Origin: a virus
DNA: 64,000 bases
Direction: 5' to 3' (one strand)
IMG/VR virus record: IMGVR_UViG_3300031707_000010
Coordinates: 1 to 64,000 of that record
The notes under the pieces are model-generated. The model did no database searches, was not told where the DNA came from, and was given only the letters and a program-made list of their open reading frames with translations. A program made the position numbers and the translations under genes. Shown in pieces: positions 15,244 through 44,712 of this stretch. How positions within the stretch are numbered: position 1 is the first letter of the stretch; each line of letters starts with the position of its first letter.

Positions 15244-18200
15244 CTCTCACCTATAGCTTTTATCCCCTTAACACCAAACTCGGTAGTCCTTTTGCGTAAA
15301 TTGTGTTTGATGGAGGTGACGTAAAAATCTACCGAGTTTCCTTGTATAAGTGGAAACAACTTACTATTTTGAACTCTCACCACAAACAACCTTCCATCAG
15401 GAGAATCGGGATTATCTTTTACAACTGCCGATAACTGCGGCAACAGTATTGATTGAACCATCCCTTTAAATCTTGGTTTGGCATTCTCAGTTACTCTTAA
15501 CTTTGCTAAATTTCTAGCTAAAGGTCTTGTAAGAAATTTCTTATCTGTTATTTCTTCAGATACCAATCCATATAAAGCCACTGAAACAGAATCAATATAA
15601 ATCTGTCTTGAAGCCTCATCTGCTTCAAGCTTTAATCCTGGACAATCTACTTCTATATAATCCCCCGTATAAAATCTTCTTGTATCTGCTGTAGTTCGAG
15701 TAGTTCTTACTTGTGTTGTATCTACTGTATCGCTTGTTTCTTTTAATGTTAGCTTTATAAATACTGAATTTCCACCTACTTCATATAGTGTATTAGATAA
15801 TAATGGAGACCAATACGCTTTTAATGCTGCATTTGTTAAAGCAAATTCTGCTTCAGTTTTATCAATCTTAATATAAGGAGTTCCAAAAGAACCTGTAGCC
15901 CAATAATCAACAGACGCTTCTATTCCTTTATGAGTAACAATTGCTCTAACCCCTGCAACATTTTCTACAATGTTTCCTATGCCTAAATTATCTAAAGAAT
16001 TTACATAAATTCTATCAACATCCCAATCTCCCGTAGCTACATAATCATTGCTATAATAATAATTCTTATCTCTTAAAATAATGGCCACAGTATCTTTTGT
16101 AACTGCAAACCCTAAACTACTTTCGATTCCAATTGTATTATTTGGAACACTTACAGCATTTATTCTTTTAAAAACATATTCATCTGTAGCAGGATTCTGA
16201 ATCTTAAACCAATCATTAATTCTAATTCCAGCACTTGTTGCACTGCCACCAAATACGCTGGCAAGTTGAACCGTTGTATCTGAACCACCCAAGTCTTTTA
16301 TAATTCTAACTTCTGTTTCTACTTCAACAACCTTCCATTTAAATAATGGACACGTATCTATATTTGCTGAAGCTAAAGATATTTCACCATCCCTGACGCA
16401 AATCAAGTTTATCTTTTTCTGATAGATGTCTCTTTGTTCAGCATCAAATGTCATATCTGGAAATACTCTATCATCTAATCTTTTTCTATAGATAATGTTA
16501 AATTTAATGTCTTGTCTATTTGCTCTAAATGGAGTAACAGAACATTGATTAATAATCTCATCTACAGTATTTTCCATTTCAGTTATATCTATATACTTTG
16601 TATCATATCCTTCCAATAAGGTAAGGTCTGGGGTATCTGAATAGTCTGGATTCCTTCTTACCATAAAGAAGTTTCCATTTTCATCGAACCCTTTTGTCCA
16701 ATTTATGATTGAACAAAATTCTTGCAATACATCTTCACAAGACATTCCAGAGAAATCTGCAAATTCTATTATTGGAATATACCGAGTTCCTAACTGCCAC
16801 AAATAATACTTTCCTTCTAATAATTTATAAGAGTATCTTTCTCCTCCATTGGGAGAACTCACGGCATAAACATTTGGATTAGTAGCATTACTTACAACAG
16901 CAGTCTGTCCATTTGTGTACATCTCATCAAAAACTCCAGGATTGATAGCATCATATTCTCTATATGCGTCTGAATCATCTGTATCTATTGATGCAAATAT
17001 TCCTAATCCTTCTAAAGAAAAGAATATTTTTAAACCAGATACTATAAGATTTTTAGGCTGATTAAATAAAGTCTTTACACATACTCTACTAGGCCAAGAA
17101 TAACTTGATAATTTCCATATTGCATATTGGTTTGGAGAATCTGTATATACTGTATCTACTCCATAATCAGTTATATTATTAAGCATCAATACAGCTACAT
17201 AATAATATCCATCAACATATACTCCTTCTAATACTGCAACATCCATAAAGGAGCTAAGAATTTTTGCCATTTTTCTAATATAAGTATTTCTAAAATTACC
17301 TGCAGGTAATACATTATTTTCTGGATTTACAGAATCTATTGAATTATCTAATCTTTGTTGATATCCAGAATAATTTATATCTTGAACAACAGCTCCTAAA
17401 GTTTCTATAACAACATTAGAAATCATTACTCGAGAATTAGTTTCTGAGCTTGATCTAAAAAAGTCTAATTCTATTTTTATAGTAGTTCCAGATGCAATTG
17501 TAGTATTTACTTCAATGAGCGTATTTGTCCAAGTCGTACTAGTACAATCAAATACTGAAGCATGTGCAATTTCTGTACTAGTGCCTACATTTATTAATTT
17601 CCAATCAAATTCAAATCCACCATTGTCTGCTTTCCATCTAATGTGAACTTTTAAACCTGTAAGATTTTGCGTTGTACTCTCAAATTGTAAATTAAGATCC
17701 TGTGTACCTTTTTGCCAATCTGTATTAATGTTAGTATTTCCATAATAAATATAATTTGCATCATCCGAAGTTTGCCCATCGTCTATACAATCTAATACAT
17801 CTAATAAGCTTGTTGAATCTGTAGGAGATGCTTTCCAATAATCGATAGGAGTTCCTTCTATAGCATACGTAGCTCTATATTCTAAAGTTGTTGTTGGAGG
17901 AAGAGATGTTGGAGCAGTAGGCTGAAAACAATACTTATGTCCAGAACTATTAGTAACCTTTATTAAATAATTATGAGTGCCACCAGGAAATGCTGAACTA
18001 CTATCTCCACTTATTGTGAATCCCCCAGATTCAACCCCGTGGTAAGAGCCACCTACAGTTTTATCATTATAAGCAATATCTGTTATTAAAACTACTGTAT
18101 TTACATCACTCCTTGGATTTATTTCATACACTACACACTCTGCATATTTGTCTGTACCAAATTTTCTATCCTCACTATTAGCGTTGTTACCAATAAAGCG

Positions 18201-20438
18201 TAAACCATCTAGCGTTTGGAAAGTAATACCAAATAATAAGAATGTTTCATTTGGGCCTTTAACAAGGCACAGAGGCTGCACCTCTCTTCCATACTTAACA
18301 AACATTCTAAGATTATAAATTTCACTTAAAGCAGTTACTTGCCCTTGTCCACCTAATGTCATTTCTCTAACTGTTAAACCTGCATATCTATAAGTATAAG
18401 AAGTATCAAAATTACTTTTTGCTCCTACATACCAAACTGTATTATCTTTTATTCCTTCCTTTACATAATTCTGAACATACATCAATCCTATTTTTACTGG
18501 ACTCGGAATAGCATAAATCTCTAATCTTTTTCCATCACTAGAATCTATACAACAATTAACTCCTTTTTGTCCTAAAGAAAATTTAATATCTCTTATATGC
18601 CTATATTTATTAGCACTTGAAGCAAAATAAACATTTTCTAAACCTCCATTCATATTATATCTATCATTATAATCTATTGTGTGCATTTGTCCATATAAAG
18701 CGTAGTACCCTCTACCCATAGAAAAATCTGGTTTCTTAGTATTGTTTGTTCCAGAAGAAATGAAATCATCGGTTGTTCCAATCTCACCTTTAAAAGTTGG
18801 GGAACGCATCATAGCCACTGTATGACTTAATTTGCTATGATAAGTATTAACTAACCCGGGATATGAAAACCAAATTGTTTGTGGAAACGGTATTGGAATA
18901 TTAAGGGTCTTAAATGTTGGGGGTTGTATCGTCGATTCAAAGCTTGGTAGACTTATTGGATCTATATTAGCATCATAATCTGCTGTTTGATGCAATCCAG
19001 ATTCATCTCTAATGCGAACTAAATGCCAAGGAAATATAATCTCTGCAGTTCCCCACCCACCTGGCCATATCATTTTCTTAAACTCTAAATTTTCTAAACT
19101 TAAAAATGCGTATTGATCTGTATCTCTAGCAGTAGACCATTGAGTATGAACTGGATCCGCCTGCAAAATTGGAAGTAATGGACCTGATTGAAATGGACAC
19201 ATACCAGCCATATAAGCAAAACTTACTGCATCTTTATAATAGTTTCCATTAGAAACTTCCATAGTATAATTTAAAACACCCGTTATAGGAAAGAAATTAA
19301 ACTCTGAATCATAGACGTAATCTCGTTGATCAAAATCTGAAATCCAATCAGCTCTATCTATATAGCTAATATAAATCAAATGCTCTTTTAATACGTCATC
19401 TGCAAATGGAGAATATTCTAATGCTAAGACTTCATGAACATAGTATCTTGCTTGTACTCGTATATAATTATACGATCCTATTGTTTCTAATGATAATCTT
19501 TCTATAAACAGTTTATCAGAAAATTCATTTGTAGTAATTGTTTTCTTAAGAGTAAATAAAAATGTATCTAAATCTAATTGCCATATCTCATCATCAATAC
19601 CAAGAAACAAATAATTATTAACAACATCGTAACACATAGCCCGGCATAACTTAGATGTCATTGGAAAAGAATCAGGTTCTCCATCTGCATTAGTATCTAA
19701 TTGAACTGGCGGTCTGCCAAACATGCCATTCACAGAAGGAGAAAAATCTAAAAGTGTATCTATAAATTTTGGCACAACAAATCCAGGAGGAAGATTAACA
19801 GTTAATCCATCTGCCGCAACAACTCCATATGCTTTTTTAAGAATCTCTGTAATTAGAAATGAAATTGGTCTTTGAATATACCAGCGTTTTAATCCATCTA
19901 CAACATTTTCTGCTGATGTATCCATAGCTATTCTAATTAAGCCATCTGTTTTAATTAAAGCAACTTCTTTTGTATCTGTAACAACCTTAGTTAATACCAA
20001 TGTAGCAAACTTAACAGAAAACTGTTTACCATTTAATTCTAAATCAGCGCCAATTTCAACAAGCGTGTATCTACTATTTGAATAAGTGCCACTATTATAA
20101 CCTGGCTTCTTAAATACATTTATAATTCCATGAGGATCTTGTAAAAACTCTGCAGCAGTTCCTACATTATCTTTAAGAGTATTTGGGAAAGGTAAATTAA
20201 AAAATCTATCATTGTTTCTAACTTGTATATCACCTGACTTATTGTAGAAGTGATTGAAGTCTCCTTCTATAACAGTCTCTATTGTTCCATAATCTATTAA
20301 TCTATTAGTACCGTTTATTTGTAGCTGTTCTGAAAAATCTACTTTTCTTCCAGCTTTATCAAAGATAAATAATTTCTTAATTATCCCAAGAGGGAGTTTC
20401 TGCATTATTAACGCATTGAGAAATTCTAATTGCGTCAC
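15240..20438 (-). CDS. Tail hub / tail-associated protein (Tal-like)
   Basis: A 1732-residue structural protein that follows the tape measure and distal-tail genes, the place of tail hub or Tal proteins in siphophages. The start is GTG with GGAGG seven bases upstream. The N-terminal 200 residues include NGTNRLIDYGTIE and describe a hub-like domain. At about residues 880-1010 lies a jelly-roll-like segment (IDDGQTSDDANYIYY to VMISNVVIE) that resembles the C-terminal domain of the 1597-residue repeat protein. The last 150 residues (ITDKKFLTRPLARNLAKLR) look like the gp27/gpJ-type closing region. No peptidase motif is recognised. It probably forms the tail tip and binds the host. Confidence 0.75.
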   Translation of the reverse strand: MTQLEFLNALIMQKLPLGIIKKLFIFDKAGRKVDFSEQLQINGTNRLIDYGTIETVIEGDFNHFYNKSGDIQVRNNDRFFNLPFPNTLKDNVGTAAEFLQDPHGIINVFKKPGYNSGTYSNSRYTLVEIGADLELNGKQFSVKFATLVLTKVVTDTKEVALIKTDGLIRIAMDTSAENVVDGLKRWYIQRPISFLITEILKKAYGVVAADGLTVNLPPGFVVPKFIDTLLDFSPSVNGMFGRPPVQLDTNADGEPDSFPMTSKLCRAMCYDVVNNYLFLGIDDEIWQLDLDTFLFTLKKTITTNEFSDKLFIERLSLETIGSYNYIRVQARYYVHEVLALEYSPFADDVLKEHLIYISYIDRADWISDFDQRDYVYDSEFNFFPITGVLNYTMEVSNGNYYKDAVSFAYMAGMCPFQSGPLLPILQADPVHTQWSTARDTDQYAFLSLENLEFKKMIWPGGWGTAEIIFPWHLVRIRDESGLHQTADYDANIDPISLPSFESTIQPPTFKTLNIPIPFPQTIWFSYPGLVNTYHSKLSHTVAMMRSPTFKGEIGTTDDFISSGTNNTKKPDFSMGRGYYALYGQMHTIDYNDRYNMNGGLENVYFASSANKYRHIRDIKFSLGQKGVNCCIDSSDGKRLEIYAIPSPVKIGLMYVQNYVKEGIKDNTVWYVGAKSNFDTSYTYRYAGLTVREMTLGGQGQVTALSEIYNLRMFVKYGREVQPLCLVKGPNETFLLFGITFQTLDGLRFIGNNANSEDRKFGTDKYAECVVYEINPRSDVNTVVLITDIAYNDKTVGGSYHGVESGGFTISGDSSSAFPGGTHNYLIKVTNSSGHKYCFQPTAPTSLPPTTTLEYRATYAIEGTPIDYWKASPTDSTSLLDVLDCIDDGQTSDDANYIYYGNTNINTDWQKGTQDLNLQFESTTQNLTGLKVHIRWKADNGGFEFDWKLINVGTSTEIAHASVFDCTSTTWTNTLIEVNTTIASGTTIKIELDFFRSSSETNSRVMISNVVIETLGAVVQDINYSGYQQRLDNSIDSVNPENNVLPAGNFRNTYIRKMAKILSSFMDVAVLEGVYVDGYYYVAVLMLNNITDYGVDTVYTDSPNQYAIWKLSSYSWPSRVCVKTLFNQPKNLIVSGLKIFFSLEGLGIFASIDTDDSDAYREYDAINPGVFDEMYTNGQTAVVSNATNPNVYAVSSPNGGERYSYKLLEGKYYLWQLGTRYIPIIEFADFSGMSCEDVLQEFCSIINWTKGFDENGNFFMVRRNPDYSDTPDLTLLEGYDTKYIDITEMENTVDEIINQCSVTPFRANRQDIKFNIIYRKRLDDRVFPDMTFDAEQRDIYQKKINLICVRDGEISLASANIDTCPLFKWKVVEVETEVRIIKDLGGSDTTVQLASVFGGSATSAGIRINDWFKIQNPATDEYVFKRINAVSVPNNTIGIESSLGFAVTKDTVAIILRDKNYYYSNDYVATGDWDVDRIYVNSLDNLGIGNIVENVAGVRAIVTHKGIEASVDYWATGSFGTPYIKIDKTEAEFALTNAALKAYWSPLLSNTLYEVGGNSVFIKLTLKETSDTVDTTQVRTTRTTADTRRFYTGDYIEVDCPGLKLEADEASRQIYIDSVSVALYGLVSEEITDKKFLTRPLARNLAKLRVTENAKPRFKGMVQSILLPQLSAVVKDNPDSPDGRLFVVRVQNSKLFPLIQGNSVDFYVTSIKHNLRKRTTEFGVKGIKAIGES

Positions 20439-31786: not shown

Positions 31787-32071
31787 TTAATCCTTCTTTA
31801 TATGGACATTAAATGAAATAGTTCCTACATCTCCACCGAGTGTTGTTGCATGGACTTTAATAAGATAAACATTCCCAACAGTTCCACCAGTCGTATCTAC
31901 TCTAACTTGAACAGTCTGTCCACTAATAATACGTAGAGACTGATACTCCGCTATAGGAGCTGGAGCTTCAAAGCTCACACTATTTATAGGATCTCCCTCA
32001 ACAAAACTAGGAGAAAAATTACAATCTATAGGTAGCTTATCAGATTTTGTCTGTCGATGTTCTGGTAGCAT
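31787..32071 (-). CDS. Small immunoglobulin-like virion protein, fibre-tail adaptor type
   Basis: A 94-residue beta-rich protein: SDKLPIDCNFSPSFVEGDPI, then VSFEAPAPI, TVQVRVDTTGG and a closing strand VGTISFNVHIKK. This order recalls small phage fibre-tail adaptor proteins with an Ig-like fold that often flank repeat or fibre genes. It follows the 849-residue repeat protein, with AAGGAG before its ATG. The assignment is by fold pattern and is moderate. Confidence 0.45.
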   Translation of the reverse strand: MLPEHRQTKSDKLPIDCNFSPSFVEGDPINSVSFEAPAPIAEYQSLRIISGQTVQVRVDTTGGTVGNVYLIKVHATTLGGDVGTISFNVHIKKD

Positions 32072-32080
32072 TTTGACTCC

Positions 32081-34630
32081 TTAATAAGGCACTTTAGTTC
32101 TAGATTTAAGCCGTAAAGTTGACCTAGATTCTATATCATTTACTTTACGTTTACTGCTATATAGTCTTGTTCTTTCTTGACCGTGTATTGCTAACTGTTT
32201 ACTTCCAAAAATTATAACATCTGATGGATCATAACTTGACTGTGTTCTACAGATGTCGAGCCACTCACTCATTATAACAAGATCATCTGTGGATACCGGA
32301 ACAATGAACGATGGCATAAACATCTGTATTGCTTCATTCACCAACTGAAGATCAGTGGTTTCAGCTAGCAATCCAGATATCGCTGCTTCAACTAAATCTT
32401 CTATAACCGATGAATCTTCTGTATAAGACTTAACTTTAGATATTAAAGTTTGAACAAATTCTTGAGAAGCTACAGTATCGAAAGTATCTATCTTAAGGCT
32501 TGAGATTCTAGTGCTAACTGTATCATCGACAGTATTTGTATCAAATACACTTGCTAATAACTTAGAGATTACAATCTGAAGAGTCTCAGAAACAATTTCA
32601 TTTTCTGAGGTTGTTGCTTTTATTCCAGTTATGAGTCCAGATAAAGTTTCTGCTACATTGACGGTGTCAGAAACTAAAACTGGTAAGTCTGATATATCAC
32701 CAAGTAAAGTCTCTGTTACAGTCTGTGTATCAGCAACTTGTGCATTTTGTACAGCTCCAGATGCAACAGCTTCAATGATATTTTCAGTATCAGAAGTAGA
32801 AGCTAATAATTTAGATATTATAGCTTGAACAGTTTCTTGTATTGTAATAGAATCTTCTATTAAACCTAATGAGGATGCGAAACTTGAAATTGTTTCTAAT
32901 ATTGTAATTGTTTCTGAAGTAGAAACTTTTAATCCAGAAATTAATCCAGTTAAAGTTTCTGTAATAGACTCTGTATCTTCAGTATTTACTCTAGTTTCAG
33001 ATACTCTAGTTTGAATAGTTTCTGTAACTACTTCAACCTCTTCAATAGAAATCTTAATTTGAGATACTAAACCATTTACCGTTTCTGTAATAGTCTCAGT
33101 ATCAAATATAGAAACTATTAAATTAGAAACTTTACTTATTAAGGTTTCAGATATGCTTTCATCATCATAAATAGAAGCTAATAATCCAGAAATCTTACTA
33201 TTTAAAGTCTCTGTAATTGATTCTGTATCAAAGATACTTATAACAACTGCTGATACTAATTCTAAAAGTGTTTCTGTAGCAGTTTCAGTTTCAAATATAG
33301 AAACTTTTAATGCTGAAATTATTGGAGTTAAAGTCTCTGTTATATTTTCAGTATCAGAGGTTGAACCAATGACTTTAGATATTAATATAGAAACTATCTC
33401 AGAAACATTTATAGTATCTTCAATTACAACTTCATTAGGTGGTAAATAACTAAGTAATTTATTTACTTCTTCTTGAACTGCAATAGAATCAAATATAAAT
33501 ATATCTAAAGCATTAATATCTATTTCTAACATCGCCCAAGATACTTGCATCCAAAGGGCGGTTGGAATATTAGCAGTAAGTGTTTCTGTTACTGTTATAG
33601 AATCAAATATAGAAGTAGCACAATCTCCAACATCTCCAACAAGTGTTTCAGAAATTAAATTTGTATCTGATGTCGAGGCTAATATGCCACTTATTTTTCC
33701 AGTTAAAGTTTCTGTAATTGTGTTTGTATCTTCACTACTAACTTTTATTCCACTAACTAAGCTCGTAAGCGTTTCTGTAATAGAATTTGTATCTGATGTT
33801 GAAGATAATATAACACTAACTTTACCTATTATTGTTTCGGTTACAATTGTTTCATCACTTGCTAAACAAAGTAAAGCAGTTATTTTTACTGCTAAAGCTT
33901 CCTGTACTGTAGAACCATCTTCAATACTGATTCTTAAATTTATTCTAGCATCTAAAGTTTCTGTGATACTTTCTATATCATCTATAGAAGGTTCAATTGC
34001 AGCAGCACCTGCTACAACTCTATCTAGTTGCTCAGTAATAGATGCAATATCTTCTATATTAACTTTAATTAATGATATCTTAGCATCTAATGTTTCTGTA
34101 ATACTGTTAGAATCTTCAATAGAAACTTTTAATGCTGATACTAATCCTATTAAGGTTTCTATAGCTGTACTAGAATCTTCAATAGAGACTTTTAAAGCTG
34201 ATATTAATCCTGTTAAAGTCTCAGTTATCGTAGTTGTATCTTCAACAGAGGCGTGGTGATCTCCTACAACTAAGTTTGTAAGAGTTTCTGTAATATTCTC
34301 GGTATCTGATATAGAAGGTTTGTGAGCACCAACAACTTGAGATGTTAAAGTCTCTGTAGCCGTATTAGAATCTTCTATAGCTATTTTAACTGCGGATATT
34401 CTACTATCTACAGTTTCTGTAGCTGTATTAGAATCTTCAATTGAAACTTTTAAAGCTGAAATCTTAGAAGTTAAAGTTTCTGTAATAGTACAAGTATCTG
34501 ATATAGAAACTAAATTATTTCCATTAACAGAACAAGTAAGAGCTTCTGTTACTGTACTCGATTCAAAGAGATTCGGTCCAGTATTTAAACTAGCAATAGG
34601 AGCTGACGCTATGGGATAAAACCCATTCAT
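32081..34630 (-). CDS. Giant repeat fibre protein A (about 35 repeats of 21 residues)
   Basis: An 849-residue protein. After a short N terminus (FYPIASAPIASL) about 35 degenerate repeats of 20-22 residues run to about residue 768, with consensus [FES]DT-x-[ST]-ITETLT-x-x-ISGLKVSI. The last 81 residues differ, end very basic (RSTLRLKSRTKVPY), and may anchor the protein. The regular spacing of Asp, Thr and Leu suggests a beta-solenoid rod, one turn per repeat. The start overlaps the GT gene stop (ATGA). A second, longer protein with the same repeat is at 36477-41270. A fibre, whisker or surface coat role is likely but unproven. Confidence 0.8.
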   Translation of the reverse strand: MNGFYPIASAPIASLNTGPNLFESSTVTEALTCSVNGNNLVSISDTCTITETLTSKISALKVSIEDSNTATETVDSRISAVKIAIEDSNTATETLTSQVVGAHKPSISDTENITETLTNLVVGDHHASVEDTTTITETLTGLISALKVSIEDSSTAIETLIGLVSALKVSIEDSNSITETLDAKISLIKVNIEDIASITEQLDRVVAGAAAIEPSIDDIESITETLDARINLRISIEDGSTVQEALAVKITALLCLASDETIVTETIIGKVSVILSSTSDTNSITETLTSLVSGIKVSSEDTNTITETLTGKISGILASTSDTNLISETLVGDVGDCATSIFDSITVTETLTANIPTALWMQVSWAMLEIDINALDIFIFDSIAVQEEVNKLLSYLPPNEVVIEDTINVSEIVSILISKVIGSTSDTENITETLTPIISALKVSIFETETATETLLELVSAVVISIFDTESITETLNSKISGLLASIYDDESISETLISKVSNLIVSIFDTETITETVNGLVSQIKISIEEVEVVTETIQTRVSETRVNTEDTESITETLTGLISGLKVSTSETITILETISSFASSLGLIEDSITIQETVQAIISKLLASTSDTENIIEAVASGAVQNAQVADTQTVTETLLGDISDLPVLVSDTVNVAETLSGLITGIKATTSENEIVSETLQIVISKLLASVFDTNTVDDTVSTRISSLKIDTFDTVASQEFVQTLISKVKSYTEDSSVIEDLVEAAISGLLAETTDLQLVNEAIQMFMPSFIVPVSTDDLVIMSEWLDICRTQSSYDPSDVIIFGSKQLAIHGQERTRLYSSKRKVNDIESRSTLRLKSRTKVPY
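32327..34564 (-). repeat. Coding repeat array, about 35 copies of a roughly 63-bp unit
   Basis: DNA encoding the ~21-residue repeats of protein A. Copies have diverged, so this is an old array under coding selection. Most have 63 bases, with 60- and 66-base variants. One repeat (about residues 340-380) carries an extra 17-residue insert. Confidence 0.85.
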
Positions 34631-35352
34631 GCAAGTCTCTTCATTTCTTCATGCACTTGTTGTGCGCGTTCCAAGAAATGTCTGAAAGCAGATGGAAGCA
34701 ACGCCATCGTCTTGTAGTGAGTCACTTCCGCAAGAGGATCGACAAGCAATTTGTATCCTGCCATTCGCGCTTTGCGACAAAATGAAATGTCTTCGTTCAT
34801 CACCTGCGGTTTTGTTTTGCCCGTTGGGATGATGTAGTCCAGCGTGAACCACGGAAACTCGATTCGTTCAAACACGCTGATGTGTGTCAGCATGCACCCG
34901 CTGCCTGCGGCATCCACATAGAACGGGCGTGAATCTGAGGGCGGCGTGACATTCATATACTCGCCGTTTTCCACTTCACGAAACAACATGTCCACATGGT
35001 AGTACGCACCTTCAGCCTGTTGCGGAGCTTGAGCGATATTGGAGTATACACCAAATACAATCGGTGCATTGTTTCTGTCCGCATGAACCATCAACTGCCG
35101 AAGTAAATTTGGCTGGAATGATTCATCTGTGTCCACCATCAATAGCCAATCGGCCTTGTCTCTCTGTGCAAGCTCAACGATCACGTTGCGATTTTCTTCC
35201 ACATACAAACTCGCGCTGTACTCTATCGGCAACAGGTCGTATGTCGGAGATGGTTCCGTAAGCTCGAATCTTTGCAGATCGAGCAGGGCTTTGGCAAATG
35301 CGGGATGACATGACCCGCCCACCGGAAATGCAACAAGTATTTTGGCTTTCAT
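34627..35352 (-). CDS. Glycosyltransferase-like protein between the repeat fibre genes
   Basis: A 241-residue protein started at ATG 35352, which shares ATGA with the preceding stop; an upstream in-frame start adds a cysteine-rich segment unlike the family. MKAKILVAFPVGG opens a GT-A-like fold, DWLLMVDTDESF holds DxD (D74, D76) and AAGSGCMLTHISVF plus NEDISFCRKARMAGY match the acceptor and ED regions of GT2-like phage enzymes. The gene is clearly GC-richer than its surroundings. It overlaps the start of repeat protein A, so co-expression with a Ser/Thr-rich virion protein is built in. Confidence 0.8.
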   Translation of the reverse strand: MKAKILVAFPVGGSCHPAFAKALLDLQRFELTEPSPTYDLLPIEYSASLYVEENRNVIVELAQRDKADWLLMVDTDESFQPNLLRQLMVHADRNNAPIVFGVYSNIAQAPQQAEGAYYHVDMLFREVENGEYMNVTPPSDSRPFYVDAAGSGCMLTHISVFERIEFPWFTLDYIIPTGKTKPQVMNEDISFCRKARMAGYKLLVDPLAEVTHYKTMALLPSAFRHFLERAQQVHEEMKRLA

Positions 35353-36467
35353 ATATCCATTTCCATGTATAGTTTTCCAAGAAAAATTGCAACAGCAGAT
35401 CCTGCTCCACCAGCTTGATTTTGACATTCCGCATGAGGATAGAGAATAGTTGTGCCTGTCGGCAAATTCGTTGACTTCTCTACGTTGTCCACGATTGTTG
35501 CCGGTGTTGCAACATCCACCATGCGATACGTAATCTTTGAATCTCCCGGCTTACAGAACATCATAAAATCAAACACTTCAGCAGCACCCCCAGCAGCCGT
35601 TGTTCTCCCTGTATCCGTATAGTTTGGTGTAACAGTATCCTTGTTTCCATATTGCCACACGGTCTTTCCTGTATCCTTGCAAAATCCGCAAGAATCGTTT
35701 ACTGCCGATGCGTCACCATTCATAGCGCCACTGGCACCATTCAAACCGATGAATATGCGCATGGTGCTTGTGTACGTCAAAATTCCTGCGCGTGCTGCAA
35801 AAAAGAATCCCGCATTTCGTGTTGTGGCTGCGGCGGTTGTTCTCGCACCGGACTGATTGGCTGCTGTTGTTGTCGTAGTGTATGTTGCTCTGCGCATCTT
35901 TGTCATCACATTCGTATCAGCAATCGCAGGGTGTGCTTGTGTAGCCGATACCGTCCACGAACATCCAAATGAAATAGCAGCAGTTGTACCTGCTCCCGGC
36001 AACCACAGCAATACAGAATTTCCCCACAAAGACGGTTGCGTTGCGCTATCCAATCCTGAAGGCCCAATCCAACGCGGAATTATTCTTCCCGCCAAGGACT
36101 TGGAATACATATACACGGCAGCCCCCGCAGGAGCCGCAGGGTCAGCCGTTACATGCGGCAACACCATGCGTTCTGATGTAGCCGTGATGAACACATCCTT
36201 CGTTCCTGCGGAAAGTGTTACCACATTATTGCTGTTGCTCGATGCAAGAATTGTTGTCCGCGCAAGAGCAGGCGTAGCAGAAACAAACGTGCCTATCCCC
36301 ACTTCCCATTCCGCACCGCCCTGAATGCAATAGAGGCACGTATCATTGTTCGCCATGACGGAAGCAAACGTGCGAAACCCCGTTGCGGCACCTGCAAGGG
36401 TCACATTCCCTGAGCCTTCAGTTGTCGTTGTCTCTTTTATGCGGTCTTCATTTATGAGTGATGCCAT
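35349..36467 (-). CDS. Fibre-like virion protein with an N-terminal attachment domain
   Basis: A 372-residue protein. The first 105 residues (DRIKETTTTEGSG, TGFRTFASV, AEWEVGIGTF, SAGTKDVFIT) match an N-terminal domain common at the start of phage fibre or appendage proteins. The rest is Thr/Ala-rich beta sequence with a jelly-roll-like C-terminal half. G+C is about one half by eye against one third nearby, so this gene and the next are probably recently acquired together. AGAGGATCGT precedes the ATG. Confidence 0.7.
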   Translation of the reverse strand: MASLINEDRIKETTTTEGSGNVTLAGAATGFRTFASVMANNDTCLYCIQGGAEWEVGIGTFVSATPALARTTILASSNSNNVVTLSAGTKDVFITATSERMVLPHVTADPAAPAGAAVYMYSKSLAGRIIPRWIGPSGLDSATQPSLWGNSVLLWLPGAGTTAAISFGCSWTVSATQAHPAIADTNVMTKMRRATYTTTTTAANQSGARTTAAATTRNAGFFFAARAGILTYTSTMRIFIGLNGASGAMNGDASAVNDSCGFCKDTGKTVWQYGNKDTVTPNYTDTGRTTAAGGAAEVFDFMMFCKPGDSKITYRMVDVATPATIVDNVEKSTNLPTGTTILYPHAECQNQAGGAGSAVAIFLGKLYMEMDI

Positions 36468-36476
36468 ACGATCCTC

Positions 36477-39400
36477 TTATGATGATGTTGCTGAAAATCT
36501 TAATCTCAAGTCTGAATAATCTGTTATTGAATCTGCCTGTAAAGGAGTGAGGGTAAAGCTATCATCTGTCCAAGTGTTTGCTACATTATTTATAGTCTTC
36601 TCTGCAATTACATTTACACCTTGTCTTAACTGAACCGTAAAATCCATTACTCCTTGATTTGTACTCTTTTGAAATCTAAATTTTACTTGATGTCCACTAG
36701 CAACTTGTGGATCTATCACTCCATTGAGCTTCACTTCACACCAGCTGTTACTTGGATTTTCTGGTGAATGAATATAATCTGAATCGTTTGGAGGTTCTAA
36801 TTCATCAATACAAGCATATAAATCAACTCCTATACTAGGTACCCAAGTCTGTGGATCTACATCTGAACCTGCAAAGATTTGAAGTGGATTAATATTTTCA
36901 TCAAAACTCTCTTCAACTGTAATAGTATCTGATGCAATTGCAGAAAGGTTAGATACTTTACTTGCAACAGTCTCTGTAATACTCTGAGAATCTTCAACTG
37001 CTACTTTTAACGCTGATATCTTATTATCTAATATCTCTGTAATATTAACAGTATCAAATATAGATGCAACATTATTTCCTTCAACTTTAGAACTAAGTGT
37101 TTCTGTAATTACTTTAACATCTTCAATAGATACTTTTAATCCACCTATAAGAAGAGCTACAGTCTCTATAATACTTTGTTCATCATCTATAGAAACTAAA
37201 TTGTTTCCACTTACTTTACTCGTTATAGTTTCTGTAATGCTTATAACATCATCTATAGAAACTATGAGATTGCTTATTTTGCTAGTTAAAGTCTCAGTTA
37301 TTGATTCTGTTTCAAAGATACTTATAAGTGAATTTCCAACAACCTGTACATTTAATGTTTCAGTTATCGTTGTTGTATCGAATATAACAATGCCAGCTAA
37401 AGGCATTGCTATAATAATTGTCTCATTTACAGATACAACATCTTCAATAGAAACTTTATTAGCGCCAGTAACTCGTGTTATTACTTCTTCAATTGCTGTC
37501 TCTGTATCAAAAATCGAGGGCTTGTGAGCACCAACAACTTGCGTTAAAAGAGTTTCTACAACATTCTCTGTATCAAATATAGATATTAAATTAGAACCTA
37601 CAACTCTTACTACGAGTGTCTCAGTAATTGATATTGAATCTTCTATAGGTATTGATAAATCTGCAATATCTCCAGCTAAAGTTTCTGTAATTGACTCTGT
37701 ATCAAATATGGATACTTTTAATCCACTTATTAATTCTATTAAAGTTTCTGTTATAGTTTGAGAATCTTCTGTTATTGCACCAAGAACACTACTAAGAATA
37801 ACAGTTGTTTCTGTAACTGATTGTGTGTCTTCAGTTATTGCTAAATTTGCACTTAGCTTACCTAATAATGTTTCTATAATAGATTCAGTATCAGATACAG
37901 ACGCTAAGTTTGCACCTGATACAAAACCTATTAAAGTTTCTGTAATTGATTCTGTATCACTTGTAGATGCTAATACACCGCTTATCTTGCCTATTAAAGT
38001 CTCTGTGATACTTTGAGAATCTTCAATAAGAATTGGTATATCTGCCACATCACCAAATAACGATTCTGTAATAGATTCAGTATCAGACGCTATTGCACTT
38101 ATAGATAACTTAAGCTGTAAAGTCTCTGTAACTGATACAGTATCATCTATAATTACACTACAATCTCCAACATCTCCATAAAGATTTTCTGTAATTGATT
38201 CTGTATCAGAAGCTACTCCACTAATAGATAACTTTAACGCTAAGGTTTCTGTTATAGACTGTGTGTCTTCTGCTACTTGGTATATTCCAGAAGTGCCTGC
38301 ATTTAAAGTTTCTGTTGTTGACTGTATATCTTCAACACCAACTTTAATAGCCGAAATTACAATACTTAAAGTTTCTGTTACATTCTGTGTATCTTCAGCA
38401 TTAGCTTTAACTAAGGATACAATACCTAATACAGTTTCTGTAATTGTCTCAGTATCAAATATCGATATTGGAAGATCTGATATGTCACCAACTAAGGTTT
38501 CTGTTATAGACTGTGTATCAAAAATACTTGGAAGAATAGATAACTTAGTAACTATCGTTTCAGTAGCTGTATTACTATCTTCAATTGCTATCTTTAAAGC
38601 TGAAATTAATACAGTAAGAGTTTCTGAAATATTTTCTGTTTCACTTGTACTAGCATTAATTAAAATTCCAGCAAACAAAGTTTCTGTAATAGACTCTGTA
38701 TCAAATGTAGTAGCTGGTAAATCTGATATATCTCCTAATAAAGTCTCCGTTATACTCTGAGAATCAAATAAGCTTAGATTAACAGATAACTTTATGCTAA
38801 TTGTCTCAGTTATAGATTGTATATCTTCTATTACTACTGAGCAGTCTCCAACATCTCCATAAAGATTTTCTGTTATATTAATAGTATCTTGAGCAACTGC
38901 TGGTAAATCAGAGACATCGCCTAATAAAGTTTCTGTAATTGATTCTGTATCAAATATAGAAACTAAATTAGTTCCAAAAACTCCAGCTGTTATAGTTTCT
39001 GTAATTGATTCTGTATCAAAGATAGAAGGCTTATGAGCACCAACAACTAAACTGCTTAAAGTCTCAGTTACAGATTGTATATCTTCAGCATTTGCTTTAT
39101 TAGCACCAACGACTAAGCAAGTTAAAATCTCAGTTATTGTCTCTGTATCAAATACGATAACAGTAACATTTGAAGCTGTTTGTATTTCATCTATAGCATT
39201 TTCAGTATCTGATGTTAAAGCTAATATACCACTTACTTTTCCAGTTAAAGTTTCTATTATTGAATCTGTATCAAATAACGAAGCTGGTAAAGATTCTCCT
39301 AAAGTGAGGGTTTCAGATGCTGATTCTGTATCGAATATAGATGTTAATACTGTTCCTATCTTAATATCAAATTGTTCTGTTGCTGTGTTAGAATCAAATA

Positions 39401-41270
39401 TTGATACTAATAATCCACCTATTTTACTTGTTAAAGTCTCAGTTATAGATTCTGTATCAAAGATGGAGACTACATTAGCACCAATAACCGCTACAGTTAA
39501 AGTCTCAGTTATACTTTGAGAATCTTCTATAGCTAATTTATGAGCACCAACAACTCTTGAATCTAAAGTTTCTGTTATTGACTGAGAATCAAATATACTA
39601 ACAAGTAATCCACCAATTCTAACTGCTAATGTTTCTGTTATTGATTGAGAATCAAATATCAAAAATTCTATTTCTGTTTCGAGATTTAAAGTTTCTGTTA
39701 TTGATTGAGAATCAAATATATTAACAAGTAATCCACTAATTTTGCTTGTTAATGTTTCTGTTATAGATTCAGTATCTTCAGCTAAACTTACTAGAGAAAG
39801 TGTAGCTCCAACAGTTTCTGTAATTGTAGTCGTATCATCTTTTGATGCAAGTACCGTACCAACTTTAAGAGTTAAAGTCTCGGTTATTGATATGGAATCT
39901 TCTACTAAAGAAACCACATTTCCAATTTTAACAGCTAAAGTCTCTGTTGTAGACTGTGTATCAAATATAGATACTAAGCTAGTGCCAAACACTCCGACTA
40001 TTAAAGTTTCTGTTACACTTTGAGTATCGTCTTTAGTAGCATAATTAGTACCAAATATACCAGCAGTTAAAGTTTCTGTTATACTCTGAGTATCATCTTT
40101 TATAGCATAGTTAGTACCAAATACTGCTCCACTTAAAGTCTCTGTAGTAGAACGAGTATCTTCAGCATTAGCTTTTAAAGCGCTTATTAATGCTGTTAAT
40201 GTCTCTGTTACTGATTGAGTATCTTCAGAGTTACATTTTAGACTACTTATTAATCCAGTTAAAGTTTCTGTAGTAGAACGAGTATCTTCAGCATTAGCTT
40301 TTAAAGCGCTTATTAATGCTGTTAATGTCTCTGTTATTGTTTCTGTATCAAAAATTGAGATTAAGCTAGTACCAAATACACCAGCTATTAAAGTTTCTGT
40401 AATTGATTCTGTATCAGATATAGAAACTAGATTAGTACCAAATACTCCACCTGTTAAAGTCTCTGTAATAGAACGAGTATCTTCAGTATTACATTTTAAT
40501 CCACTTATTAATGCTGTTAAGGTTTCTGTAATAGATTGTGTATCTTCAGCATTGCATTTTAATCCACTAACTAAAGCTGTCAAAGTTTCTGTAATTGTAC
40601 AGCTATCTTGAACAGAGGTTATTTTAAGAGCAGATATTAATGTTGTTAAAGTCTCAGTTATCGTACAAGTATCAGAAACTCCAGGAATTCTATTAGCACC
40701 AACAACTAAAGCTGATAAAGTTTCAGTTATAGTAGTCGTACTAGAAGCAGTTGAAGTCTTTAAAGCAGAAATTCTAGCAGTAAGTGTCTCTGTAATAGAG
40801 GTTGTACTCGCTGCAGTTGAAGTCTTTAAAGCTGTAATAACCGCAGTAGTAGTCTCTGTTATGGTACAAGTATCAGATACATTAGCTACTTTAAGAGCAG
40901 TTATAACAGCAGTAAGAGTCTCTGTTGCAGATAATGTATCAGAAACATTTAAAGGAACTAAAGGATTTACTTTAGGTGCTAAAGTTTCTGTTAAAGTACA
41001 AGTATCTGATATAGAAGTTATTTTAAGTTCAGAAATTCTACTTGTTAAAGTCTCTGTTATTGTCGTAGTGCTAGAAGCTGTTGAAGTTTTAAGTCCACTT
41101 ATTGTAGCTGTAAGAGTCTCTGTTATAGTACAAGTATCTTCTGCTGTTACATTTATAGGAACTGGAGCTATATAACCGGCAGCTATGATTGGAACAAACA
41201 ACGGAGCATCGACCGCCGTAAAAACGTCGGATTTGATCTGCGGTGGGTTTCTTACATAGCCAGTTGCCAT
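36477..41270 (-). CDS. Giant repeat fibre protein B (67 repeats of about 21 residues)
   Basis: A 1597-residue protein: 41 N-terminal residues (VRNPPQIKSDVF), 67 repeats that I counted one by one (residues about 42-1466), and a 131-residue C-terminal domain with NPSNSWCEVKLNG and TLTPLQADSITDYSDLRLR. The C-terminal part looks like a jelly-roll carbohydrate-binding domain common in environmental phages and related to a segment in the tail hub. Repeat consensus is [FES]DT[EQ]SITETLT-x-x-ISGL-x-x-SI. About one residue in four to five is Ser or Thr, a good target for O-glycosylation. A 70-bp exact repeat (40141/40267) shows recent unit duplication. Confidence 0.85.
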   Translation of the reverse strand: MATGYVRNPPQIKSDVFTAVDAPLFVPIIAAGYIAPVPINVTAEDTCTITETLTATISGLKTSTASSTTTITETLTSRISELKITSISDTCTLTETLAPKVNPLVPLNVSDTLSATETLTAVITALKVANVSDTCTITETTTAVITALKTSTAASTTSITETLTARISALKTSTASSTTTITETLSALVVGANRIPGVSDTCTITETLTTLISALKITSVQDSCTITETLTALVSGLKCNAEDTQSITETLTALISGLKCNTEDTRSITETLTGGVFGTNLVSISDTESITETLIAGVFGTSLISIFDTETITETLTALISALKANAEDTRSTTETLTGLISSLKCNSEDTQSVTETLTALISALKANAEDTRSTTETLSGAVFGTNYAIKDDTQSITETLTAGIFGTNYATKDDTQSVTETLIVGVFGTSLVSIFDTQSTTETLAVKIGNVVSLVEDSISITETLTLKVGTVLASKDDTTTITETVGATLSLVSLAEDTESITETLTSKISGLLVNIFDSQSITETLNLETEIEFLIFDSQSITETLAVRIGGLLVSIFDSQSITETLDSRVVGAHKLAIEDSQSITETLTVAVIGANVVSIFDTESITETLTSKIGGLLVSIFDSNTATEQFDIKIGTVLTSIFDTESASETLTLGESLPASLFDTDSIIETLTGKVSGILALTSDTENAIDEIQTASNVTVIVFDTETITEILTCLVVGANKANAEDIQSVTETLSSLVVGAHKPSIFDTESITETITAGVFGTNLVSIFDTESITETLLGDVSDLPAVAQDTINITENLYGDVGDCSVVIEDIQSITETISIKLSVNLSLFDSQSITETLLGDISDLPATTFDTESITETLFAGILINASTSETENISETLTVLISALKIAIEDSNTATETIVTKLSILPSIFDTQSITETLVGDISDLPISIFDTETITETVLGIVSLVKANAEDTQNVTETLSIVISAIKVGVEDIQSTTETLNAGTSGIYQVAEDTQSITETLALKLSISGVASDTESITENLYGDVGDCSVIIDDTVSVTETLQLKLSISAIASDTESITESLFGDVADIPILIEDSQSITETLIGKISGVLASTSDTESITETLIGFVSGANLASVSDTESIIETLLGKLSANLAITEDTQSVTETTVILSSVLGAITEDSQTITETLIELISGLKVSIFDTESITETLAGDIADLSIPIEDSISITETLVVRVVGSNLISIFDTENVVETLLTQVVGAHKPSIFDTETAIEEVITRVTGANKVSIEDVVSVNETIIIAMPLAGIVIFDTTTITETLNVQVVGNSLISIFETESITETLTSKISNLIVSIDDVISITETITSKVSGNNLVSIDDEQSIIETVALLIGGLKVSIEDVKVITETLSSKVEGNNVASIFDTVNITEILDNKISALKVAVEDSQSITETVASKVSNLSAIASDTITVEESFDENINPLQIFAGSDVDPQTWVPSIGVDLYACIDELEPPNDSDYIHSPENPSNSWCEVKLNGVIDPQVASGHQVKFRFQKSTNQGVMDFTVQLRQGVNVIAEKTINNVANTWTDDSFTLTPLQADSITDYSDLRLRFSATSS
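36873..41147 (-). repeat. Coding repeat array, 67 copies of a roughly 63-bp unit
   Basis: Tandem coding repeats of protein B. The core ACTGAAACT-like segment (ITETL) recurs every 60-66 bases for over 4.2 kb. The pattern is continuous and in frame, with no spacers, so it is not a CRISPR array. Confidence 0.9.
40141..40336 (-). repeat. 70-bp exact direct repeat, offset 126 bp
   Basis: The 70 bases at 40141-40210 recur without change at 40267-40336. The offset of 126 bases equals two repeat units, so a two-unit block was duplicated recently and in frame inside protein B. Confidence 0.85.
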
Positions 41271-41271
41271 A

Positions 41272-41913
41272 TTACGATGTCGCTACTTTTATAGTACCAC
41301 CAAAACCCCGTTGATTTACAAACTGTGCTCCTGTACCAAAAGCACTGAAATCTAAAGGCAGATTAAATATACACCGTTTCCACTGAACTGGAGTATTGCT
41401 ATACATCTCTGCGCGAATTTCTCCCGGCTGCATTTCCCCTTTGAACGCTTTCACAGCGCAAATGCTTGGTTTAAACCCTGTCGCTGGTGTCCACCAATTT
41501 ATTGCGCCGGAATACATAGCACACAGATTGTTCGATGGAAAAGTGTAACTAAACCAATCATTCCCACTATCCAAAACTTTTGTAGCATTACCATTTAATC
41601 GCCCATAAAAATTATTGCCCATGGCATCATTATACACCTTGCCAGCGTACACTGAAAGATGATACCACACATCGTAAGATACACCATAATACACAAAACC
41701 TGTGGCAAGGTAGTTAACGCCAATTTCTCCACTTTCTATTCCTATTCTGAAAGAAAAATTAGTTGTATCATCAGAATGATTTATCATCCACAAATTTCCT
41801 TCTTCATTTATTGTACGCTTGAACCAAAACATGAACGTAAAATCCCCTGTAAAAAGGGGAAACGGCATGGTGGCTACATGCTTGAGCGAACTTGTATCAC
41901 AATATATGGCCAT
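41272..41913 (-). CDS. LamG/concanavalin A-like virion protein
   Basis: A 213-residue beta-rich protein. FTGDFTFMFWFKRT, WYHLSVYAG and a C-terminal strand pair fit a laminin-G/concanavalin A-like jelly roll, a fold that binds glycans and is common in phage surface proteins. Its ATG shares one base with the stop of the previous gene (TAATG). It is the gene directly before repeat protein B. Decoration or receptor binding is likely. Confidence 0.6.
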   Translation of the reverse strand: MAIYCDTSSLKHVATMPFPLFTGDFTFMFWFKRTINEEGNLWMINHSDDTTNFSFRIGIESGEIGVNYLATGFVYYGVSYDVWYHLSVYAGKVYNDAMGNNFYGRLNGNATKVLDSGNDWFSYTFPSNNLCAMYSGAINWWTPATGFKPSICAVKAFKGEMQPGEIRAEMYSNTPVQWKRCIFNLPLDFSAFGTGAQFVNQRGFGGTIKVATS

Positions 41914-42350
41914 TATGCGCTCTGGTATCTGATCGGAACCATCTTCACGGTATTTCCTGAAGATGCCATTGCCTGCGCAGTATTGTTCTTCACATGAACC
42001 TTGAATTTCAATGGCGGTATCTTCACATGCTCTCTCAGCGTGATTCTTTGCGCCGTGTTCACATCCCGCAGAACAAACGACCCAACAAAATTGCTTTCAC
42101 TAACAACGGAACTCGACCCATCGGCATAATTTGTCGCATCAGGGCAGGACACAAGGTACAGATCGACCGTGGTGCCCAACACCGGAGCAGTACCGAATGT
42201 AACGTAAAGCTCAAACAACCCTTCAATATACAGATTGGTTTGATTGGCGTATTCTGTTCCGAGCGCACACAAACTGCCTGCCCCAAGAGAGTTCATCTCC
42301 GTGGTGAGCATGGAAGCAATTGTTGTCACTTCATACTTGGTTGTCGCCAT
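41913..42350 (-). CDS. Virion-associated beta-rich protein
   Basis: A 145-residue protein in the GC-richer patch at 41.3-42.7 kb. Pattern: an N-terminal helix (YEVTTIASMLTTEMNSL), several beta strands (LYIEGLFELYVTFG, TVDLYLVSC), and a closing VHVKNNTAQAM strand. Similar short proteins accompany fibre genes in environmental phages; a trimeric fibre or head-appendage role is possible. AGGGTGATCC precedes the ATG. Confidence 0.55.
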   Translation of the reverse strand: MATTKYEVTTIASMLTTEMNSLGAGSLCALGTEYANQTNLYIEGLFELYVTFGTAPVLGTTVDLYLVSCPDATNYADGSSSVVSESNFVGSFVLRDVNTAQRITLREHVKIPPLKFKVHVKNNTAQAMASSGNTVKMVPIRYQSA

Positions 42351-42354
42351 AGGA

Positions 42355-42651
42355 TCACCCTATCGCAAAATTGTTGACGGCGGCATCCACAGCCGTTTGA
42401 ATTTCCGCATCCGTTGCCGTGTCGCCTTTCGTGCGCAATGTCGCATCGAGCATGCACGCCCAGAACAACCTGTCGGTCATTCCTTCAGGACCAAGAATAG
42501 CGGTCTTTGCCCATATCACACGGTTGGCATGGTTCGCTGTCCCTGCGCTCTCAGCCATGATGTCCAGCGAAATTTTCGCAATGGCAACAGCCATGCGATT
42601 ACGCACATCAGCATTGGACTTCAGATTGTATATGTCATTGTATACTGTCAT
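42355..42651 (-). CDS. Small helical phage protein
   Basis: A 98-residue helical protein (DVRNRMAVAIAKISLDIM, NRVIWAKTAIL, EIQTAVDAAVNNFA) of a type seen in phage structural modules, with unknown function. AAGGAGG gives a very strong start. It is the first gene after a bidirectional terminator, yet no consensus promoter is seen in the 75-base gap. Confidence 0.6.
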   Translation of the reverse strand: MTVYNDIYNLKSNADVRNRMAVAIAKISLDIMAESAGTANHANRVIWAKTAILGPEGMTDRLFWACMLDATLRTKGDTATDAEIQTAVDAAVNNFAIG

Positions 42652-42726: not shown

Positions 42727-43494
42727 TTAATAAACCCTACCATAATTGTCGATATGCCCACATTTTATTCCTGTATCAACAATAAAAGGGTTCTTACGAT
42801 TGGCTACTTTTTTATACCCAGTCTTATGAAGCCATCCTTCATTCATAACACGAGTACACCACCACAAATCTTCAGTTCCACCTTGAATTTCATAAGTTCC
42901 AGTTTTTTCATTGTAAGTAGCTGACCTAGGAGTATGAAATACCTTACGAACTTTATCATTTCCTACTTGTATCTCTTCACTCTTTTCCCACATGGCTTTC
43001 AAAAGCTTAACTGAAATAAGAGTACAACCCATACCAAGTCCATCACACCAAACAGAGTCTCCTTGTTTCCATTTACGAAAACTTCCATTACCTCTACCTC
43101 TATACACTAATGGATCTGGTGGATTACCTTTAATATGATACAGGCCTCCAACAACCGGATACTCTTCTCTGTGCATCCACTCATTCATACGAATAAAAGT
43201 ATCCGGAGGAAGAATAACATCGTGGTCAATAAATAGCAACCAATCGAAATTATTCTTTACGATGAAATCTACAGCAAGATTTCTAGCATCATCTACTGCA
43301 TAAGATAAAGGCGAAAATGTATCAATCCAACGAATCAATTCTGCATTAGACCAATTCGCTGGTATAACCTGCCCATATCTCGCTAACATCCACTCTGCTC
43401 GAACCAACCCAGTAAGAGGAATAGACACACATACTTTTCTTTGAATGGGCTTTCCAGACGGTTTGAGGACATTATATCTTTTAAGTGTTTTCAT
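42727..43494 (-). CDS. Glycosyltransferase-like protein
   Basis: A 255-residue protein with NFDWLLFIDHDVILP (D90-H91-D92, a DxD metal site), GLGMGCTLISVKLLKAM, and EDLWWCTRVMNEGW as the acceptor and ED region. The order matches GT2-like phage enzymes. It follows a small zinc-type gene and a methyltransferase (ATGA and TAATG overlaps), so these three are co-translated and probably act on the same glycan. Confidence 0.8.
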   Translation of the reverse strand: MKTLKRYNVLKPSGKPIQRKVCVSIPLTGLVRAEWMLARYGQVIPANWSNAELIRWIDTFSPLSYAVDDARNLAVDFIVKNNFDWLLFIDHDVILPPDTFIRMNEWMHREEYPVVGGLYHIKGNPPDPLVYRGRGNGSFRKWKQGDSVWCDGLGMGCTLISVKLLKAMWEKSEEIQVGNDKVRKVFHTPRSATYNEKTGTYEIQGGTEDLWWCTRVMNEGWLHKTGYKKVANRKNPFIVDTGIKCGHIDNYGRVY

Positions 43495-43658
43495 CTCCCC
43501 ATCCCATCTTTTGTCTTTACATCTTCTGAAACTCCTGCATTAAGAATTTTAGGAGGTTCTTTAGATTTTTCAGCTTCTCCATAATGAAACTCACACAATT
43601 TAACGACTATAAAAGTATCGTTATCTACAGTACAACCGCATGGCATTCTTTCTTGCAT
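43491..43658 (-). CDS. Small Cys/His protein, 55 residues
   Basis: A short frame interlocked with both neighbours: its ATG shares one base with the methyltransferase stop (TAATG) and its TGA overlaps the glycosyltransferase start (ATGA). The N-terminal half has CGC...C-x2-H (C7, C9, C22, H25), which could bind zinc. The tight coupling in both directions makes it a real gene despite its size. Function unknown. Confidence 0.65.
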   Translation of the reverse strand: MQERMPCGCTVDNDTFIVVKLCEFHYGEAEKSKEPPKILNAGVSEDVKTKDGMGR

Positions 43659-44224
43659 TAGCGCCTCCGCTTTTCAAGAATTACTTCCAAATTACCATCA
43701 CCCTTCCATGTTACCATCTCAATCTTCCATGGCTGAGGTGCATAATAATCATAGAGTTTATTGTGAACACCGATTTGTTTTACTTCATAGATACCAGTTT
43801 TCTTATTCTTAATTTCTTTCCAACCCATAGCTTCTGGCATTGGATCAAAATAAAAGAATGTTACTTCATTAAAAGGATTGCAATGCGTAGGGTCTTGAAC
43901 ATATTGTTCATTAACCCCATAAGGACAGCCAATTGCGAGCTGTCCTTCTGGCTTCAATATCCTCCAAATTTCGTTAAATACGTCTAAAGTGAGCCACGGC
44001 TTGATATGCTCAAGCACGTGGCTCGCCATGACCGTAGTAACGGAATTGCTTTCAAATGGATAAGGTATATCTTCAATGTCGTGAACAACATCAACGCCAT
44101 CGAGTTTACGTTTATCCATCCCGATCCAATGCGGACCACTTTTACGATCGCCACATCCGATATCGAGAAGAAATGGAGTCAATAATTTGGACTTGGATTT
44201 CTTTATTTTCTTAGTCACAATCAT
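43658..44224 (-). CDS. SAM-dependent methyltransferase
   Basis: A 188-residue class I methyltransferase. LDIGCGDRKSG (about residues 20-30) binds SAM, WIGMDKRK supplies the acidic strand, and VMASHVLEHIKP is the typical post-IV motif. RILKPEGQLAIGCP completes the fold. It could methylate a sugar or the product of the neighbouring glycosyltransferase. GTAAGG lies close to the ATG. Confidence 0.85.
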   Translation of the reverse strand: MIVTKKIKKSKSKLLTPFLLDIGCGDRKSGPHWIGMDKRKLDGVDVVHDIEDIPYPFESNSVTTVMASHVLEHIKPWLTLDVFNEIWRILKPEGQLAIGCPYGVNEQYVQDPTHCNPFNEVTFFYFDPMPEAMGWKEIKNKKTGIYEVKQIGVHNKLYDYYAPQPWKIEMVTWKGDGNLEVILEKRRR

Positions 44225-44226
44225 CC

Positions 44227-44712
44227 TTACGGGAATTTGACTTGATAAGTGGCCGACACATCCTGATTGCTATTCCACTGCGAAGAGTTAAAGGTGTTAC
44301 CAGCGAAAATTGAATTCGAGGACGCATTTCCGTAAAGACCAAGGGAGCTAATCGTTAACGGACACAGTGAACCAAACTGCGCCGAACCAAACGATGCTGT
44401 TGCCTGCATAGTACGGGAAGCAACAACCGATGTAGAAACTGCAATACGGTTGCTCGATCCGCCAATTTCAGCCGGCAAAGTCGTTGCAGCCGCTGCAGGA
44501 GCAGTTCCAGATCCAATAGCCATGTGCGTAACTCTCTTTGAGTTTGCACCAGCCACGAGATTCTCAACCAGATAATACTGAGCACCTAAGTCAGTTATCT
44601 GATTTTTCTGCCAGCCGCTATCTCCAATAACCTTCCCATTCTCAAGAATGTTTATACGAAACATTCCATTCGCATGAGCTACTTCTTTTACTGCACCCTT
44701 TTTGCGAGACAT
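44227..44712 (-). CDS. Putative virion or fibre-tip protein
   Basis: A 161-residue beta-rich protein. NQITDLGAQYYLVE and HMAIGSGTAPAAAATTLPAE resemble a small domain widespread in phages (gp37/fibre-associated, IGTGTTAPA.. pattern). The region is GC-richer. AAGGAAGGAACATCAA precedes the ATG. Likely an appendage component. Confidence 0.6.
   Translation of the reverse strand: MSRKKGAVKEVAHANGMFRINILENGKVIGDSGWQKNQITDLGAQYYLVENLVAGANSKRVTHMAIGSGTAPAAAATTLPAEIGGSSNRIAVSTSVVASRTMQATASFGSAQFGSLCPLTISSLGLYGNASSNSIFAGNTFNSSQWNSNQDVSATYQVKFP

Follow-up and report, generated by a model that had tools for sequence, protein, structure and literature searches.

To our knowledge, glycosylation of phage virions has been documented in very few cases. 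It was reportedly described for the mycobacteriophages Che8 and Rita by Freeman et al. in 2023. In these two phages the glycans are found on proteins of the capsid (PMC11256854), and a second study places glycans at the C-terminal ends of the subunits of capsid and tail tube (PMC12619734). Chloroviruses and Mimivirus have their own glycosyltransferases, methyltransferase domains and glycosylated fibres; the chlorovirus protein A64R combines GT-A and methyltransferase activities, and the glycosylated fibre proteins of Mimivirus consist of collagen-like repeats (PMC4691112).

We analysed a 64,000-nucleotide stretch of viral DNA (positions 1 to 64,000 of IMG/VR record IMGVR_UViG_3300031707_000010, here called the window), whose source virus infects bacteria or archaea. 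Like the Che8-type phages, it appears to encode glycosyltransferases of its own, as judged by the profile matches of two genes, GT1 and GT2. The original prediction for this DNA was a phage that glycosylates its own fibres or coat, offered as the main candidate for an undescribed system; as a kind of system, virion glycosylation is already known, and the claim does not stand in that form.

The repeat proteins A and B and their gene neighbourhood

The genes around A and B are transcribed from high to low coordinates. They are given here with a separate sugar locus:

6684–11995, plus strand: phage sugar locus with matches to GT2-family enzymes, NAD-epimerase/dehydratase, DUF5672 and methyltransferase-like genes
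31787–32071, minus strand: 94-aa protein encoded just downstream of A, with a Pfam match (PF23148, E=1.4e-6, above the cut-off) to gp77, a fibre-tail adaptor of podophages
32081–34630, minus strand: protein A, 849 aa, about 34 units of a 21-residue DxxxITE repeat
34627–35352, minus strand: GT1, predicted GT-A glycosyltransferase, 241 aa from the ATG at 35352, with DTD and NED motifs and 4-base overlaps with both neighbours
35349–36467, minus strand: 372-aa protein with an N-terminal domain common to phage tail-fibre proteins and a C-terminal domain of PHROG 13925
36477–41270, minus strand: protein B, 1597 aa, about 67 repeat units from residue ~44 to 1447, followed by a non-repeat C-terminal part of ~150 aa
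41272–41913, minus strand: 213-aa protein without a family match, lying between GT2 and B in the same orientation
41913–42350, minus strand: 145-aa protein, no family match
42355–42651, minus strand: 98-aa protein, weak match to PHROG 33419 (unknown function)
42727–43494, minus strand: GT2, second predicted GT-A glycosyltransferase, of the same family as GT1 and a member of a conserved block
43658–44224, minus strand: predicted class I SAM methyltransferase, the gene before GT2 (Pfam Methyltransf_11, E=6.6e-9)
44227–44712, minus strand: 161-aa GDSGW...FAGNT protein, encoded first in the conserved block, matching PHROG 5417 and weakly the tail-fibre PHROG 4176

Proteins A and B are built from a repeat unit of about 21 residues with the core D-T-x-S-I-T-E-T-L, and in both proteins the series of consecutive units begins close to the N-terminus. 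The two giant proteins of the original prediction were both recovered as open reading frames on the minus strand, and its repeat numbers (about 35 in A, 67 in B) agree with a loose motif chain of 34 and 67 units, mostly spaced by 20–22 residues. A stricter profile retains 27 units in A and 65 in B, compared with about one in shuffled sequences. Moreover, a two-unit DNA pattern with exact 21-codon (63-base) spacing matches the window 20 times, against 0.00 matches expected from shuffles. The TETLT repeat thought to be common to the two proteins is borne out as well, since the core is found in both and their units are related in sequence. Serine and threonine together account for 27% of A and 28% of B. 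On the plus strand opposite the repeats lie long antisense open reading frames (window 33684–34259, 37201–37527 and 38263–38760), which the composition of the repeats most likely explains.

In the direction of transcription the order is 161-aa protein, methyltransferase, GT2, three small proteins, B, 372-aa protein, GT1, A and gp77-like protein. A single GC-rich glycosyltransferase gene had been expected between A and B, overlapping the start of A by four bases. GT1 is indeed found there and its stop overlaps the ATG of A, but it shares the interval with the 372-aa tail-fibre-domain gene, and 4-base overlaps chain that gene, GT1 and A. The GC content of GT1 and the 372-aa gene is 49%, as against 31–32% for the two repeat genes; the A/B region is therefore a mosaic. 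A homologue of the 372-aa protein, 66% identical, is encoded in locus L003. The sugar locus, anticipated at 6.7–12 kb, is confirmed by the matches given above. Elsewhere in the window, a gene for an SMC/RecN-like ATPase adjoins one for a PDDEXK endonuclease (12054–14682, plus strand), and a very large 1732-aa protein (15240–20438, minus strand) has no match in PHROG.

When B, or the long repeat protein of a relative, was searched against phages by tblastn, no match was returned, for which low-complexity filtering is a possible cause. The search with a repeat profile that had been proposed did match 39 stretches, but none of them was confirmed by tblastn. For this reason a spaced DNA pattern, consisting of two D-xxx-hydrophobic-T-E motifs at 21-codon spacing, was adopted for the repeat search. 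The scan matched at least 118 stretches, at least 89 of them distinct, and about 20 with genuine repeat arrays among the matches listed. In the genome collection, a stricter version of the repeat pattern matched two contigs only.

Predicted modification enzymes and a recurrent four-gene block

The full open reading frame of GT1 spans 34627–35427, with translation likely starting at the ATG at 35352 because its homologues begin there. GT1 matches PHROG 1574 (E=5.4e-22) and PHROG 34859 (E=1.8e-16), both annotated as glycosyltransferase; the matches of GT2 to the same two families are weak. An HMM of the glycosyltransferase family, made in this analysis from 35 sequences, recognizes both GT1 (E=2.3e-68) and GT2 (E=3.6e-21). 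The acidic motifs are kept in both proteins, a DxD followed by an (E/T)xD, which read DTD and NED in GT1 and DHD and TED in GT2. By profile similarity over the catalytic domain and by these motifs, the two proteins are members of the phage GT-A family PHROG 1574/34859, whose phage glycosyltransferases are annotated by similarity only. GT1 is thus, as predicted from its motifs, a catalytic-looking GT-A glycosyltransferase.

Searching solved structures with GT1, either as a single sequence or as a profile, gave no match, and the GT2-type subfamily had no match among 50,697 phage records. The only PDB sequence match to the GT2-type profile is the STIV protein A197 (PDB 2c0n), at a marginal E=0.029 and with the acidic DxD region aligned. 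We take A197 to be an archaeal-virus GT-A enzyme, and regard its marginal similarity to the GT2 type as a lead rather than as membership.

The 161-aa protein, the methyltransferase and GT2, all encoded upstream of B, had been missed by the original prediction. It is these genes that recur elsewhere: the arrangement 161-aa protein, methyltransferase, GT2 and DxxxITE repeat gene, on the same strand and in the same order, is found in the window and in L016, L220, L198, L207 and L229. Compared with the window, the proteins of the other blocks are 37–47% identical for GT2, 47–51% for the methyltransferase and 36–48% for the 161-aa type. L239 encodes the same enzymes and probably has the same order, and L205 combines methyltransferase, GT2 and repeats. 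The window itself is a variant, with three small genes between GT2 and B. In L229, GT2 and the repeats are separated by a gene whose product has a tail-fibre-type N-terminus, comparable to the 372-aa gene between B and GT1. Finally, in L016 and L220 the GT2-type gene overlaps the DxxxTE-repeat gene by four bases, as GT1 does with A in the window.

The block is flanked by head or packaging genes of differing families, such as a PHROG 10 capsid in L207, a PHROG 9953 capsid in L220 and a terminase gene in L244. Therefore, the block appears to have been shared, inside the late operon, by phages that are unrelated. The most conserved partners of the repeat genes are GT2 and the methyltransferase upstream of B, and not the glycosyltransferase between A and B on which attention had first been focused.

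Two side observations concern individual loci. L016 and L244, like the window, encode a second, more distant glycosyltransferase of the wider family in the same locus as the GT2-type gene. In L198 (4900–6537), the methyltransferase gene of the block is split by what looks like an intein, an insert with matches to LAGLIDADG (E=4.4e-6) and, weakly, to Hint.

Association of the glycosyltransferases with the repeat type

A gene of the glycosyltransferase family lies at most 4 kb upstream on the same strand for 7 of 10 repeat ORFs, counted where at least 2 kb are visible upstream, and for 6 of 185 other ORFs (p=1e-7, among the matches listed). In tests whose loci are not fully independent and may share ancestry, and whose thresholds were set after a first look at the data, the GT2-type profile was positive at 6 of the 8 testable repeat loci (at least 2 kb visible upstream, among the matches listed) and absent from the other two; in 160 virion-module control loci, fetched through GT1-type or tail-fibre queries, it was found in a single lineage (L015/L016; p=7e-9), and in the other loci of the repeat scan it was found in 2 of 69 (p=3e-6, among the matches listed). 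On reading, these two loci, L193 and L239, turned out to encode repeats of about 20–21 residues that the strict motif had missed. The converse test, on GT2-type genes fetched without regard to repeats, rests on the one lineage L015/L016. The linkage originally proposed between glycosyltransferase and repeats gains support here, in that such genes are far commoner at this repeat type in other phages than in controls.

The linkage does not extend to repeats of this length in general. In 80 loci fetched via the tail-fibre N-domain, repeat proteins with units of ~20–22 residues occur beside that domain in about half, and a glycosyltransferase of the GT1/GT2 family is within reach in five, one of which has a repeat protein. 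On this count, a general association of ~20-residue repeat proteins with glycosyltransferases was rejected. Repeat-rich phage proteins are mostly found without such an enzyme, and repeats alone therefore do not predict one; for the same reason, long Ser/Thr repeat proteins do not in themselves point to glycosylation.

The same 80 loci (L093–L172) contain widespread, mostly unannotated phage proteins that start with MFGFxxFAxxPFAxLGG, carry many different ~20–22-residue repeats and often end in a C-terminal xxDSQxxxWTxI tail (for example L116:3505–6216, L095:14439–15602 and L134:8686–9591). They resemble A and B in period, in their Ser/Thr/Ala-rich repeats and in the neighbouring tail-fibre-domain gene, and A and B likewise have ~20–22-residue repeats near such a gene. 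They differ in repeat sequence and in usually lacking a glycosyltransferase of the GT1/GT2 family, and A scores only weakly with their N-terminal signature (E=8.2 among 2160 N-termini). This common class of proteins, which has repeats without these enzymes, is a natural control. A further repeat protein came from the pattern scan (L189:647–4156, also L251 and L271): it has 1170 aa with apparently helical 28-residue ALTEVQRALDVVQDTALK repeats, unlike the beta repeats.

The repeat-only proteins bear on the reading that A and B are adhesion or tail fibres of the usual, unmodified kind, in which the conserved Asp and Glu of each repeat bind Ca2+ or shape a solenoid, Ser and Thr only line the surface and the glycosyltransferases are unlinked accessory genes. 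That many phages have ~20-residue repeat proteins without the GT1/GT2 family speaks for it, as do Asp and Glu being among the most conserved positions of the repeat. Yet GT2 is linked to the repeat type both by statistics and by position, and 4-base overlaps occur in three genomes, so that we consider unmodified fibres improbable.

Predicted fold and proposed fibre glycosylation

Seven repeats of B were predicted twice by AlphaFold, once with 13 rows from the window and once with 29 rows including repeats of other phages. The first model is all-beta (pLDDT 55.7), the second has two strands per repeat (pLDDT 58.2, pTM 0.51, a low confidence), and there is no sign of helix in the predicted repeats. 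Foldseek gave no significant match for either model. VIA-align 2, which re-aligns only Foldseek's own candidates, superposes the low-confidence model (pLDDT 58) on the parallel beta-helix of SufB (Z 12.6, 2.3 A, 147 residues) and, with Z 8–10, on others such as pectate lyases and haemolysin A. Middling Z values are common for repeats, and a beta-solenoid is therefore plausible for A and B rather than demonstrated. Of the fold first put forward, the two strands per repeat and the superposition on parallel beta-helices are in favour, and the pLDDT of only 58 and the Foldseek result are not; likewise, the suggested prediction of 5–10 repeats gave an all-beta model, but at pLDDT 55.7–58.2.

The predicted fold also bears on the reading of A and B as tape-measure proteins, which would fit weak matches of A to Pfam TMP_3 and PHROG 167 (E ~1e-3, under Pfam's cut-off). 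Tape measures are mainly helical, in contrast to the all-beta prediction for the A/B repeats, and the weak matches arise because the composition of the proteins is of low complexity. We rejected this identity as very improbable.

We give a little less than an even chance to the reading that A and B form fibres on the virion and that a dedicated glycosyltransferase/methyltransferase cassette decorates them; the linkage of the genes is observed, and the location on the virion and the glycosylation are what we infer. According to this proposal, A and B would be extended, rigid repeat proteins of beta structure, probably solenoids, and would make up fibres or similar appendages of the virion. They would be produced in a late operon along with a modification cassette of two GT-A glycosyltransferases and a SAM methyltransferase, with GT1 coupled to A and GT2 upstream of B. 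GT1 and GT2 would put a sugar on Ser/Thr side chains that recur at regular intervals along the repeats; we infer the repeat as their substrate, as we do the acceptor residues and the identity of the sugar. The methyltransferase may methylate the repeat-borne glycan, and the sugar donors may derive partly from the phage's own sugar locus. The idea of a self-glycosylating phage is partly supported, by the related repeats, the preserved glycosyltransferase motifs and the gene linkage, but the repeat genes have more conserved partners than GT1.

In the main rival reading, the target of the cassette would be a different protein of the virion (major capsid or tail tube) or a glycan of the host surface, and cassette and repeat fibres would simply be neighbours in a variable region of the late operon. 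Glycosyltransferases that share an operon with capsid genes could equally target the capsid, and where virion glycosylation is known in phages, the modified proteins are subunits of the capsid and the tail tube (PMC12619734, PMC11256854). A glycosyltransferase of the wider family is near the major capsid gene in L008 and L010, with the repeat gene 2–3.5 kb off, and members of this wider family are common in viral contigs that lack such repeats. GT2-type genes, however, track the DxxxITE type specifically and in fixed order across differing capsid families, and we regard a capsid or host-glycan target as less likely than decorated fibres.

For decorated fibres, the co-retention of the genes in unrelated viruses suggests that the fibres of these viruses receive a sugar coat from the viruses themselves. 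The cassette of four genes (GDSGW protein, SAM methyltransferase, GT-A enzyme and DxxxITE repeat, a putative solenoid) might then be a transferable, dedicated protein-glycosylation system, yielding sugar-coated, possibly methyl-capped fibres on the virions of otherwise unrelated tailed phages, a generalization that we put forward tentatively and with less confidence than the reading of A and B themselves. If true, a block that pairs an enzyme with its repeat substrate would make glycosylated phages predictable from sequence, and would raise the question whether sugar-coated fibres serve receptor mimicry, shielding or particle aggregation.

With Che8 and Rita the locus shares a tailed phage with its own glycosyltransferases and sugar proposed or shown on structural proteins. 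It differs in that their glycans are on capsid and tail-tube C-termini, whereas the candidate substrate here would be a giant repeat fibre, and in that a methyltransferase and a fixed gene order are also present. With chloroviruses and Mimivirus it shares a viral GT-A enzyme and methyltransferase, viral sugar-nucleotide genes and, for Mimivirus, glycosylated repeat fibres. Those, however, are eukaryotic giant viruses with unrelated repeat sequences, and no homology is claimed. Relative to all of these systems, the different type of substrate and the defined gene block would be new.
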